From: Armatimonadota bacterium
GTDB lineage: Bacteria; Armatimonadota; Fimbriimonadia; Fimbriimonadales; Fimbriimonadaceae
Assembly: GCA_016125185.1 (NCBI GenBank)
Contig: WGMG01000001.1
Location: 310,001-374,000 of the forward strand
DNA: 64,000 nt
Direction of reading: 5' to 3'
Below the pieces are notes generated by a model. The model was not told where the DNA came from. It ran no database searches and was given only the letters and a program-made list of their open reading frames with translations. This document shows positions 22,506 through 26,580 of this stretch, piece by piece. Position 1 is the first letter of the stretch. Each line of letters opens with the position of its first letter. The translations under genes were made by a program, and so were the position numbers.

Positions 22506-22541
22506 CTTTCCCCTCTCCCGGCCTAGCGGCCGTACTCTCCC

Positions 22542-22567
22542 CAATTTTCGCTTTGCGAGAAATTGGA
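22542..22567 (+). other. Dyad in the mutS-alaS gap
   Basis: The 242-base gap 22506-22747 has no gene. It holds a CT-rich CCCCTCTCCCGG stretch resembling the palindromic insert in alaS, then this hairpin (CCAATTT..CGC / GCG..AAATTGG, 3-base loop) without a T-run, and near 22698-22725 an imperfect direct repeat of ACTGCC/ACTGC. It may be a weak mutS terminator or repeat debris. Confidence 0.45.
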
Positions 22568-22747
22568 GAAAGAGTCCTAATCGCCTTCAATGGCCCTGTT
22601 TGATTATGGTAGGAGTATGTCTTCCCATAAAATGAATCGTCTTTCCGGTGGCTTGCCCGTTCATCATCGTGAACTAGATCAGGGCATTCTTCTGCCAACT
22701 GCCGACTGCCAACTGCTGACTCTTGGCTGATCTGTCAAAATGATCCA

Positions 22748-25700
22748 ATGACCGTTCGCGAACTACGCGAGAAATATTTGCGCTTCTTCGAGAGCAAGGG
22801 GCACACGATCCACGATTCTGGGTCGCTGATCCCCGTCGACGTCACCGGACGCCTGGACGAAACCCTGCTCTTCAACGGCGCCGGAATGGTGCAGTTCAAG
22901 CCTTATTTCCGCGGCATCGCAACGCCGCCCAACAAGCGGCTGGTCACCGCCCAGAAGTGCGTGCGAACGGGCGATATCGACGAGGTCGGCGACGACAGCC
23001 ACCTGACCTTTTTCGAGATGCTGGGCAACTTCTCGTTTGGCGATTATTTCAAGAAGGATGCGATTGCGTACTCATGGGAATTCCTCACGAGCAAGGAGTG
23101 GTTGGGGCTCGACCCGAAGCGGCTCTCCTTTACCGTTTTTGAGGAGGATGACGTGGCTTTCGAGTGCTGGTCCTCCCATTTGAAACAAGCGGGCATTGAC
23201 CCGTCGACGCGAATCTTCAAGCTGGACGAAGAGACGAACTACTGGCCGGCGGGATCGTTCACCAAAGGTCCCCCGGGGCCGTGCGGGCCGAACTCGGAGA
23301 TGTTCTATTGGACGAACCCTTCGACCGTGCCCGGAACGCAGGCGGGTGACTACTCGCGTGAGCAGTGGATCGCCGACGACGAGGCGAAGAACTGGCTGGA
23401 GATTTGGAACGACGTGTTCATTCAGTTCGAGTGGCAAGGCGTGCACCGCAACCCCGACCGGCCGTCGGATGGCTACGAAAAGACGGGCATGCCCGATCTT
23501 CCGTTCCAGTCGATCGACACGGGTATGGGTATGGAGCGCACGGTGGCGGTGCTGTCGGGCAAGACGACGGTGTACGAGACCGATGCTTTCCTGCCGATTT
23601 TGGGCAAGATTGACGCGCTTCGAAGCTTTCAGCCCTCACCCGATTCGTCCCTCACCGGCCTCTCCCAAGGAAGAGTCACGACTGGAGATACCTCTCCGGA
23701 TGGAGAGGTCGGTGAGAGAGGTACGAACGAACCGGGTGAGGGGAACTCTTCTCATCGAGAGGCATCCGGCTCTTCTACCCCTCCATCCCCAACCCCTTTG
23801 CTCCCCGAGGAGGAAGGGGCCATCAAGAATGCTAAACGCATCATCGCCGACCATATTCGGACTTCTTGCTTCTGCATTGCGGACGGCGTGCTTCCCGCTA
23901 ACAACGGTCGCGGTTACGTATTGCGACGCCTCATTCGTCGCGCCGTGCTGAAGGGTCAGCGCGTCCTTGGCTTCAATGACCTCTTCATGCACGAGGTGGC
24001 CGAGGCGGTGTTCGACACGTTTGGCGATCATTACACGGAGTTGATCACACGACGTGAGGTCATCGAAGAGACGCTGAAGAGCGAGGAGGCGTTGTTTAGG
24101 AAGACACTCCAGAATGGGGTTGACGCCCTGTATGAGGGATTCATCAAGTGGGCGATGGATCTCTATCCAACATATGTTGATGCCGTCGAACGGGCGCTTA
24201 TCCGCAAGCCTATTGATCAATACCTAATTGATCTAGTTAACAAGTTCCCATCGAACACGTTTTCAAGTTCGGAGTCAAATTTCCGCACTGGTATGCAACA
24301 AATGGAGCGAGTCATTACTTCAGGCGAGTTAGGTCGTGTTCTATCTTCGATCGCCTCTGAATTGAGAGCTCAGGTCTTGCCAGATGAACTCAAACATTAC
24401 GCGTCAAAGACGTACGTATTAAGCGGAAAGCGCGCATTCTTCTTATATGACTCGCTTGGCTTCCCATTGGAAATAACTCAAGAACTCTGCGCAGAGTCCG
24501 GCATCCCCGTCGACATCGACGGCTACGAAGCCGCAATGAAGGAAGCGCAGGAGCGCTCGCGCGGCGCCCAAGGCGAAAAATCGGCCTACTCTGGTATGTC
24601 GGCGGAAAATGAACAAGCGACTGACGACGCTCCATCCGAGACAACGTTTACCGGTTACCATGACGTACAAGAATCTGCAACGCTCGTCCGCATTCGACCC
24701 GTTGCGGCCGGAAAGTACAAAGTCGCGCTCGATCGAACGCCGTTTTACGGCGAATCGGGTGGACAGATTGGCGACACCGGCGAGATTCGAGTCAACGGCA
24801 CCAGCCTGATCGTGGAGAACACGACGAAGAGCGCGGGCACGTGGTGGCACGATGTCATCGGTCAAGGTGTGGAGAGCCTGCTGGGCAAGCCGGTCGAGGC
24901 GATCGTCGATGCAAAGCGGCGCGCGCGAATCAAGCGCAACCACACGGCCACTCACCTGCTTCAGGCCGCCTTGCGGCAGGTGCTGGGTACGAGCGTGACC
25001 CAGGCCGGCTCGTACGTCGGTCCCGACAATCTGCGCTTCGACTTCACGCACGGCAAAGGGATGACGGCCGAGGAGATCGCCGAGGTCGAGCAGATTGTCA
25101 ATGACGAAATCCTGAAGAACATCGACGTGACGACGTACGTGGATCTGCCCATCGACGAGGCTCGAGCGCGGGGCGCGATGGCGCTCTTCGGTGAGAAGTA
25201 TGGCGATAAGGTTCGCATGGTCGAAGTGGGAGATTTCAGCCGCGAGCTGTGCGGCGGCATCCACGTTCGAACGACGGGCGAGATCGGGCTGTTCAAAATC
25301 GTAAGCGAAAGCTCGGCGGCAAGCGGGGTGCGGCGCATCGAGGCGATCACCGGTGAAGGCGCGTACGAGTTTGTCCGCGAGGAAACCGAAGCGGTGAAGG
25401 AGGCGGCGAACCTGTTGAAATCGTCGCCGCGGGACTTGGTGCAGGCCGTCGAGCGAGCCCTGGAGCAACTGAAGGACGAGCGAAAGCGGCGCGAAAAGGC
25501 CGAGATGGCCGCGATGTCGGGCGGTTCGACTGCGAGCGACACCGTGGATGTTGGCGGCGTGACGCTGTGGGTGAAGAACTTTGGCGACGCCGACTCGAAG
25601 ATCGCCAGCCAGGCGGTGGATAACGAAGCGAACGGCAAGCCGAACCAGGTCACTCTGGCGGCGGTGGTTGGCGACAAGGTGACGTTTATTTGCAAGGTCG

Positions 25701-25876
25701 GACCCGATGCGGTGGCCAAGGGTGCCCACGCGGGGAACTTGGTGCGCGAGATCGCCAAGATTGCAGGTGGTGGCGGTGGTGGCCGACCAGACTTCGCGAC
25801 GGCGGGCGGAAAGGATCCCGGGAAAGTCGAAGGAGCCCTCGCGGCGGCGGAAGGTCTGCTGAAGGCTCAGTTGTAG
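22748..25876 (+). CDS. alaS: Alanyl-tRNA synthetase with two internal insertions
   Basis: 1042 aa against a usual 870-890. Class II catalytic domain (ELREKYLRFFESKGH, FNGAGMVQFKPYF, CVRTGDIDEVG, LPFQSIDTGMGMER), tRNA-recognition helices, editing domain with HxxxH in NHTATHLL and the CGGIH zinc/editing motif, and C-Ala (GGGGGGRPDFATAGG) are all present, so the enzyme should be active. The excess is in two places: about 60 Pro/Ser/Glu-rich residues at 297-358, encoded by a palindrome (23633-23743) plus flanking CT-rich DNA, and about 90 residues at 465-554 encoded by AT-richer DNA. Both lie between conserved blocks and keep the frame. Confidence 0.95.
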   Translation: MTVRELREKYLRFFESKGHTIHDSGSLIPVDVTGRLDETLLFNGAGMVQFKPYFRGIATPPNKRLVTAQKCVRTGDIDEVGDDSHLTFFEMLGNFSFGDYFKKDAIAYSWEFLTSKEWLGLDPKRLSFTVFEEDDVAFECWSSHLKQAGIDPSTRIFKLDEETNYWPAGSFTKGPPGPCGPNSEMFYWTNPSTVPGTQAGDYSREQWIADDEAKNWLEIWNDVFIQFEWQGVHRNPDRPSDGYEKTGMPDLPFQSIDTGMGMERTVAVLSGKTTVYETDAFLPILGKIDALRSFQPSPDSSLTGLSQGRVTTGDTSPDGEVGERGTNEPGEGNSSHREASGSSTPPSPTPLLPEEEGAIKNAKRIIADHIRTSCFCIADGVLPANNGRGYVLRRLIRRAVLKGQRVLGFNDLFMHEVAEAVFDTFGDHYTELITRREVIEETLKSEEALFRKTLQNGVDALYEGFIKWAMDLYPTYVDAVERALIRKPIDQYLIDLVNKFPSNTFSSSESNFRTGMQQMERVITSGELGRVLSSIASELRAQVLPDELKHYASKTYVLSGKRAFFLYDSLGFPLEITQELCAESGIPVDIDGYEAAMKEAQERSRGAQGEKSAYSGMSAENEQATDDAPSETTFTGYHDVQESATLVRIRPVAAGKYKVALDRTPFYGESGGQIGDTGEIRVNGTSLIVENTTKSAGTWWHDVIGQGVESLLGKPVEAIVDAKRRARIKRNHTATHLLQAALRQVLGTSVTQAGSYVGPDNLRFDFTHGKGMTAEEIAEVEQIVNDEILKNIDVTTYVDLPIDEARARGAMALFGEKYGDKVRMVEVGDFSRELCGGIHVRTTGEIGLFKIVSESSAASGVRRIEAITGEGAYEFVREETEAVKEAANLLKSSPRDLVQAVERALEQLKDERKRREKAEMAAMSGGSTASDTVDVGGVTLWVKNFGDADSKIASQAVDNEANGKPNQVTLAAVVGDKVTFICKVGPDAVAKGAHAGNLVREIAKIAGGGGGGRPDFATAGGKDPGKVEGALAAAEGLLKAQL
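23633..23743. repeat. Palindromic (REP/MITE-like) element inserted in frame in alaS
   Basis: The left arm begins CCCTCACCCGATTCGT and continues CTCACCGGCCTCTCC; the right arm is its imperfect reverse complement ending GGGTGAGGGG, giving a fold-back of about 111 bases. A second GC-rich half-palindrome continues to about 23820. It encodes low-complexity Pro/Ser/Gly/Glu residues in a region where other AlaRS have a short linker. Confidence 0.75.
24141..24411 (+). other. Base-composition island inside alaS
   Basis: From just after ..GVDALYEG to just before TYVLSGKRAFFLYDS the DNA is visibly AT-richer than the surroundings and uses codons rare in neighbours (TTA, ATT, TCA, AAT). It encodes a helical segment (ISSIASEL-type pattern, VDAVERALIRKPIDQYL) absent from typical AlaRS at this point. 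Confidence 0.6.
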
Positions 25877-25900: not shown

Positions 25901-25962
25901 GGACTCTTTGGGAGTGCGCGAACCTGTTCGCGCTTTGAGACTGCGAAGCTTGCTTCGCTGAA
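25901..25962 (+). repeat. Left REP-like repeat of the RAYT unit
   Basis: Double hairpin, outer end CTTTGGGAGTGC and inner end GCTTCGCTGAA, directly before the RAYT promoter box. Confidence 0.8.
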
Positions 25963-25975
25963 TTCGAGCAGTGGT

Positions 25976-25981
25976 TAGAAT
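25976..25981 (+). promoter_or_regulatory. -10-like box TAGAAT for the RAYT gene
   Basis: TAGAAT ends nine bases before the ATG at 25991; no Shine-Dalgarno is visible. Confidence 0.45.
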
Positions 25982-25990
25982 GAAGACGTC

Positions 25991-26515
25991 ATGCATTCGT
26001 GGCCACATGCGCCGAGCAAGTCCGTTACGGAGCCAGGAACGTACTTTGTGACGGCGGCGACCTACCAAAAGGAACACTGGTTTCGTAGCGACGAGAAGTT
26101 GGAATTGCTTCAGAGCATCATTTTTGAAACCTGTCTAGAGTTCGACTTCGAGTTGCAAGCGTGGGCAATATTTGCCAATCACTATCATCTGATTGGTTTC
26201 AACCCGGCAGACATGGGAGTCAAGAAGCTCACTGAGAAGATCCACGGAGTCTCAGCGCGCGAATTGAATCGTCTTGACAACGCCGTCGGGCGAAGGGTTT
26301 GGTACAACATGCGAGATACACGGCTTTCTTTCGAAAAGTCCTATTTGGCCCGCCTGAACTATGTGCATAACAACCCTACGAAGCATGGGTTCGGACCCGC
26401 GCTGAGCTACCCATTCTGCAGTGCCCATTGGTTTGAAACCCACGGTGATCGCTCGTTCATCGAAACGGTCAAGTCGTTTAAGTACGATCAACTCGATATC
26501 GACGACGATTTCTAA
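25991..26515 (+). CDS. REP-associated tyrosine transposase (RAYT, Y1_Tnp family)
   Basis: 174 aa. Single-domain HUH-type nuclease: GTYFVTAATYQ at the first strand, the metal-binding HUH motif in FANHYHLIGF (near residues 63-67), and the catalytic Tyr helix YLARLNYVHNNPTKHGF (Tyr near 122), which matches the usual YIHxNPV pattern. RAYTs cut single-stranded REP hairpins and are thought to spread them. All catalytic residues look intact, and the matching inverted repeats are at both sides, so the unit may still be active. It lies in the alaS-GH3 gap without breaking a gene. Confidence 0.92.
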   Translation: MHSWPHAPSKSVTEPGTYFVTAATYQKEHWFRSDEKLELLQSIIFETCLEFDFELQAWAIFANHYHLIGFNPADMGVKKLTEKIHGVSARELNRLDNAVGRRVWYNMRDTRLSFEKSYLARLNYVHNNPTKHGFGPALSYPFCSAHWFETHGDRSFIETVKSFKYDQLDIDDDF

Positions 26516-26517
26516 CT

Positions 26518-26580
26518 TTCAGCGAAGCAGGCTTCGCAGTACGAAAGCTAACGCAGGCGTTAGCACTCCCAAAGAAGTGG
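26518..26580 (-). repeat. Right REP-like repeat of the RAYT unit (inverted)
   Basis: Reverse-complement copy of 25901-25962 starting three bases after the RAYT stop; its innermost hairpin could also serve as the RAYT transcription end. Confidence 0.8.

Follow-up and report, generated by a model that had tools for sequence, protein, structure and literature searches.

A dispersed two-hairpin repeat inserted in frame in alaS of an Armatimonadota bacterium, and its likely DUF559 partner

The insertion of short palindromic repeats into bacterial genes is not a new finding. Di Nocera et al. (2013, PMC3733652) reported GTAG and CGTC REPs inside ORFs, tRNA synthetase genes included, and noted that two Xanthomonas species carry different REPs at roughly the same position in recB. 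According to the same authors, CGTC REPs are defined by a terminal CGTC, a single stem of 8–9 bp, A-T at the first two positions and a CCA tail, and seem to be without a dedicated transposase (PMC3733652). Rickettsia palindromic elements (RPE) are likewise in-frame, protein-coding palindromes in unrelated genes.

The repeat described here was found in frame in alaS, within a window of 64,000 nucleotides of a Fimbriimonadaceae (Armatimonadota) genome, the named close relatives of which are Fimbriimonadaceae/Armatimonadota metagenome genomes. Like the GTAG and CGTC REPs of ORFs (PMC3733652), it belongs to a family of short, dispersed palindromes, mostly head-to-head dimers, that lie in frame in housekeeping genes; it differs from them in having two helices and neither a GTAG nor a CGTC tag. 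The consensus has no unpaired GTAG at its foot or end, and none of the RAYT genes of the genome is immediately flanked by the unit, as would be the case for GTAG REPs. Its helices measure 7 and 5 bp, with C-G closing the first, and its tail is GTGAGG, which also places it outside the CGTC definition, the one that covers RPE-4/6. The first-pass annotation had drawn a parallel with RPE, and in terms of mode of action the parallel is sound, as copies are in frame in alaS, trmD and nrdJ and orthologues of the first two are found without the repeat; the two-helix architecture, however, fails the stem, loop and tail of the published definition, so that the two, which also come from different phyla, are set apart by definition rather than by sequence. 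Because in-frame REP insertion is known (Di Nocera 2013), the alaS insertion alone would be another case of a known phenomenon, and to call it unexpected in an essential synthetase, as had been done, was too strong given the REPs already on record inside tRNA synthetase genes (PMC3733652). As far as the literature that we found shows, the new part is the likely partner of these repeats, DUF559, where GTAG REPs have RAYT and CGTC REPs no enzyme, and a DUF559-linked, REP-like system would be a more interesting result than the insertion itself.

The insertion in alaS

The alaS gene (22748–25876, + strand) encodes an alanyl-tRNA synthetase of 1042 aa with the Pfam domains tRNA-synt_2c, tRNA_SAD and DHHA1, and its frame runs through the insert without interruption, as the first-pass annotation had stated. 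A genome search found no second full copy in the 4.52 Mb of this genome (hereafter the own genome, G000), and a duplicate, non-essential alaS as host was rejected on this ground. The fold-back noted earlier at 23633–23743 is real: its single-stranded DNA has a folding energy of -34.1 kcal/mol, with z about -5.3 to -5.7, and none of 200 shuffles folded as well. Together with the family copies counted below, this rules out a chance palindrome. A covariance model of the unit (R1) resolves the palindrome into two copies placed head-to-head, namely a left unit, inverted and degenerate, at 23632–23676 on the - strand (36 bits, E 9.4e-10), a spacer of 14 bp with no strand, deduced from the unit coordinates, at 23677–23690, and a right unit at 23691–23743 on the + strand (72.3 bits, E 4.6e-21), also placed by the family alignment (A1) and by pair covariation. 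The right unit consists of a hairpin CCTCTCC-GGAT-GGAGAGG, a second hairpin TCGGT...ACCGG and the tail GTGAGGGG.

About 37 residues (aa 296–332) are encoded by the palindrome. The earlier figure of some 60 Pro/Ser/Glu-rich residues is reached only if about 25 further Pro/Ser-rich residues are added from the adjoining 23744–23820 (+ strand), whose codons are missing in relatives, whose DNA folds at chance level (z -0.5) and which gave one weak repeat match. There are weak signs of a possible remnant of another hairpin at about 23793–23819; a third repeat there was not supported, as nothing rose above chance folding. Mapped onto AlaRS 9jc7, the insert site is bounded by residues 262 and 268 and lies between two conserved blocks, in the loop that joins the catalytic and tRNA-recognition parts. 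In the AlphaFold2 model the insert forms a disordered loop with well-folded parts on either side, with pLDDT below 50 at residues 301–343 and about 97 in the helix directly after, and the plain reading of this model is that the insert would be a tolerated, disordered loop.

Other features of this region were also recorded. The gap between mutS and alaS, which the first-pass annotation took to hold similar DNA, does contain a hairpin, with nested hairpins at 22508–22585 (z -4.1), but these belong to another family; R1 gives no match there, and the gap is ruled out as the same element. A tandem CTGCCAACTGCCGACTGCCAACTG-like tract lies near alaS at 22697–22735, and such a tract also flanks the repeat inside trmD (L187), where it is translated. 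A second AlaRS insert of about 90 aa (24125–24440, aa about 466–556) is more AT-rich than the remaining alaS and has no palindrome; this site is also extended in genomes G002 and G023, not in G009, and some Chloroflexota AlaRS have extra residues in this region too.

The repeat family and its in-frame copies

Searching the own genome with the palindrome DNA, a check that the first-pass annotation had proposed, returned more than 50 pieces, and 28 copies could be aligned into one unit, the consensus of which reads as a hairpin CYTCTCC-GGAT-GGAGARG, YCGGTGAG, a variable spacer, CGAACCGG and the tail RTGAGG. The covariance model detects at least 92 copies of the alaS-type repeat in this genome (E <= 0.1). 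Both helices are kept, with 98.8% of cells pairing, and covariation is higher than in any of the shuffles by both measures, paired cells and score. Where units of opposite orientation are neighbours, they are arranged [-][+] in 10 of 11 cases, as in alaS. With its many dispersed copies and a conserved fold, this is a dispersed palindromic, REP-like family. Two subfamilies, CCTC/GGGTGAG and CTTC/GGATGAG, can be seen in the alignment, distinguished at columns 2 and 17 and at the base after CCGG; the base in the stem and the base in the tail change together, which hints that one factor might read both stem and tail. Counted with R1 across the genus, copies number at least 84 in the own genome, at least 72 in G009 and at least 27 in G002, and 0–11 elsewhere.

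Among the 77 copies whose surroundings were read, those in alaS, trmD and the class II ribonucleotide reductase gene (nrdJ) are bordered on either side by coding sequence of a single open frame; the identity of the latter two hosts was confirmed by Pfam, and same-strand units in the three genes are read in the same frame. The trmD orthologues readable across the site are without the repeat, and some differ in loop length; in this comparison the G009 locus stops before the insertion site.

The AlaRS loop is short in most of 29 relatives, the flanking AlaRS sequence being kept, and since the inserted DNA is moreover that of a dispersed repeat, the claim of a palindromic element inserted in frame stands. 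Four other genomes have palindromes in frame in this loop, and a low-complexity segment devoid of palindromic DNA in all relatives, the outcome that would have spoken against an insertion, is therefore not what was found. In G009 the loop holds one unit of the same family, in the same frame, as in the own genome; because G009 is a separate genome, an assembly error at alaS is unlikely. In G002, G018 and G023 the palindromes are of kinds other than the own-genome family. In the tree, the own genome, G002 and G009 group together, and G018 and G023 are placed elsewhere, among relatives without inserts; at least three histories of AlaRS insertion are therefore needed, and the insert shared by the own genome and G009 may be ancestral to their clade. 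The nrdJ linker, too, is filled in frame by other palindromes, in G009 (CTCCCTCG..CGAGGGAGTCGGTGAG..GCGAACCGGTGGGAG) and in G018 (CTCCCCCTCTCC..GGAGAGGGGGCTAGGGGGTGAGG).

DUF559 genes between inverted palindromes

The available part of one report (PMC12907096) describes DUF559 as a family of Vsr-like PD-(D/E)XK nucleases and links Caulobacter VsrA, a DUF559 protein, to mismatch repair. The repeat-flanked genes studied here belong to the same Pfam family; VsrA is described in that part as a mismatch-repair enzyme, with no mention of palindromic flanks or mobility. In the openly available literature, a search for a connection of DUF559 to palindromes, repeats or mobility came up empty. The nearest solved sequence to the DUF559 protein is 3hrl.

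The own genome has six DUF559 genes, and an alaS-type unit is present within about 250 bp of three of them (C6:447291-447605, C6:1495666-1495983 and C2:250838-251155). G009 has complete elements, about 560 bp long, in which DUF559 lies between two units, [unit-] DUF559 [unit+] (C107 and C59), and the alaS pair has the arrangement of these elements minus the gene. The alaS pair thus shares its ends with a gene-bearing, presumably autonomous element, as a MITE does; inspection by eye showed no target-site duplication at alaS or at either G009 element. DUF559 genes number 6 in the own genome, 8 in G009 and 11 in G002, and 0–6, mostly 0–3, elsewhere in the genus; the three genomes with the highest unit copy numbers are thus, along with G010, those with the most DUF559 genes.

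We then asked of each gene whether its up- and downstream flanks contain inverted copies of each other that score above 100 dinucleotide shuffles, measuring the flanks from domain boundaries, since the repeats extend the ORFs and stop-to-stop boundaries undercount. Such flanks were found for 21 of 26 DUF559 genes in the genus and 15 of 24 across the phylum. On plasmids, which came from Alphaproteobacteria, Deinococcus, Cyanobacteria and one Photobacterium, the count was 12 of 15, the Photobacterium case being negative. Among the called genes of the window only 1 of 45 had them (Fisher p 2e-12 vs the genus DUF559 set), as did 6 of 200 and 2 of 150 random segments, and the RAYT genes, used as a positive control, scored 11 of 13. 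DUF559 genes are, in other words, commonly placed between inverted palindromic repeats, and these are unrelated to each other between lineages and phyla. When the AlaRS inserts are compared with the DUF559 loci, each one matches best a repeat that flanks a DUF559 gene: L168 for the own genome, L225/L168 for G009, L337 for G002 (27/27 bases), L229 for G018 (38/42) and, the weakest match, L207 for G023. The two repeat copies of L337 are both found to one side of the DUF559 gene, within about 330 bp.

RAYT/REP systems (REPtrons, REPINs) are similar in that a small nuclease-type gene is found between inverted palindromes with many non-autonomous copies elsewhere; the gene here, however, is a Vsr-like PD-(D/E)XK nuclease, and theirs a HUH/Y1 transposase. 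On plasmids of Sphingomonas parapaucimobilis, DUF559 interrupts operons, between pntAA and pntAB (L342) and between sufB and sufC (L352); single DUF559 genes that, with their inverted palindromes, break conserved operons are what would be expected of mobile units. The orientation of the units varies by family, tails pointing outward in the G009 elements and inward in others (Sphingomonas), so this does not appear to be a classic terminal-inverted-repeat transposon.

Possible origins of the insertion

Our explanation, which we hold to be probable, is that the alaS insert is a tolerated, non-autonomous copy of a two-hairpin REP-like family whose mobility enzyme is likely DUF559, and not RAYT. 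It might be objected that this is an in-frame REP insertion of the known sort (PMC3733652), moved in trans by a RAYT of the genome, and that the DUF559 link is incidental. There are in fact 13 Y1_Tnp/RAYT genes in the own genome, 11 of them flanked by inverted repeats, and one (25991–26515, + strand, PF01797) begins 115 bp downstream of alaS. The repeats at these loci, however, are different from the alaS type: no alaS-type unit is close to a RAYT gene at any of the 13 loci, the one locus that has a unit having it more than 1 kb away, and the unit has no GTAG foot. The other repeats at RAYT loci are the reason for setting RAYT aside as partner of the alaS-type family, and we consider the objection unlikely to be right. 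The alaS-type repeat was not found in the RAYT locus adjoining alaS, and that gene is probably not the partner of the insert. This RAYT region (25905–26575) has its own 58-nt inverted repeats, and a hybrid of that repeat with an alaS-type tail was seen at another locus (L061).

DUF559 genes could also be mobile themselves and use the palindromes, spread by something else, as landing sites between head-to-head units. Some IS elements take REPs as their targets, according to the title and abstract of one paper (PMC1525189); two whole units on either side of DUF559 are what insertion between units would leave; and the location of DUF559 between operon genes such as those above fits as well. It is, however, difficult to reconcile with this that the flanking palindromes are different and unrelated in each lineage and phylum, and that in the closest clade more DUF559 goes with more repeats, which makes such an account improbable. 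Far more doubtful still is the reading of the insert as a selected feature, either a regulatory mRNA hairpin or an AlaRS extension with a function, and not as a mobile copy that is tolerated. Repeated filling of the AlaRS loop in related species, and retention of the insert in both the own genome and G009, could be taken in its favor, but the sequence, length and repeat family of the insert vary by species, most of the genus is without it, the segment is modelled as disordered, and the same family is found in trmD and nrdJ linkers.

If the palindromes and DUF559 do form one REP-like mobile system, DUF559 may be the enzyme that moves the alaS-type repeats. In such a system it would recognise and cut the hairpin units at the ends of an element, repair would then copy the element into new sites, and repeat pairs without the gene could move in trans. 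Insertions into unstructured loops that cause no frameshift or stop would survive selection even in essential genes, and the one in the AlaRS loop would be translated as a disordered, tolerated segment. It is also possible, as a more tentative proposal, that DUF559 Vsr-like endonucleases are the movers of a large class of palindromic repeats without RAYTs, and hence a second kind of REP system, present in several phyla, that rewrites loops of AlaRS, TrmD and class II ribonucleotide reductase repeatedly through non-autonomous copies.

REPs are among the commonest repeats of bacteria, and for those without a link to RAYTs no mover is known. A small nuclease gene that is widespread and lies between such palindromes would be a concrete and testable answer to this question, and the parallel, recurrent in-frame filling of AlaRS and nrdJ loops would represent a natural experiment in which mobile DNA adds new protein segments to essential enzymes.
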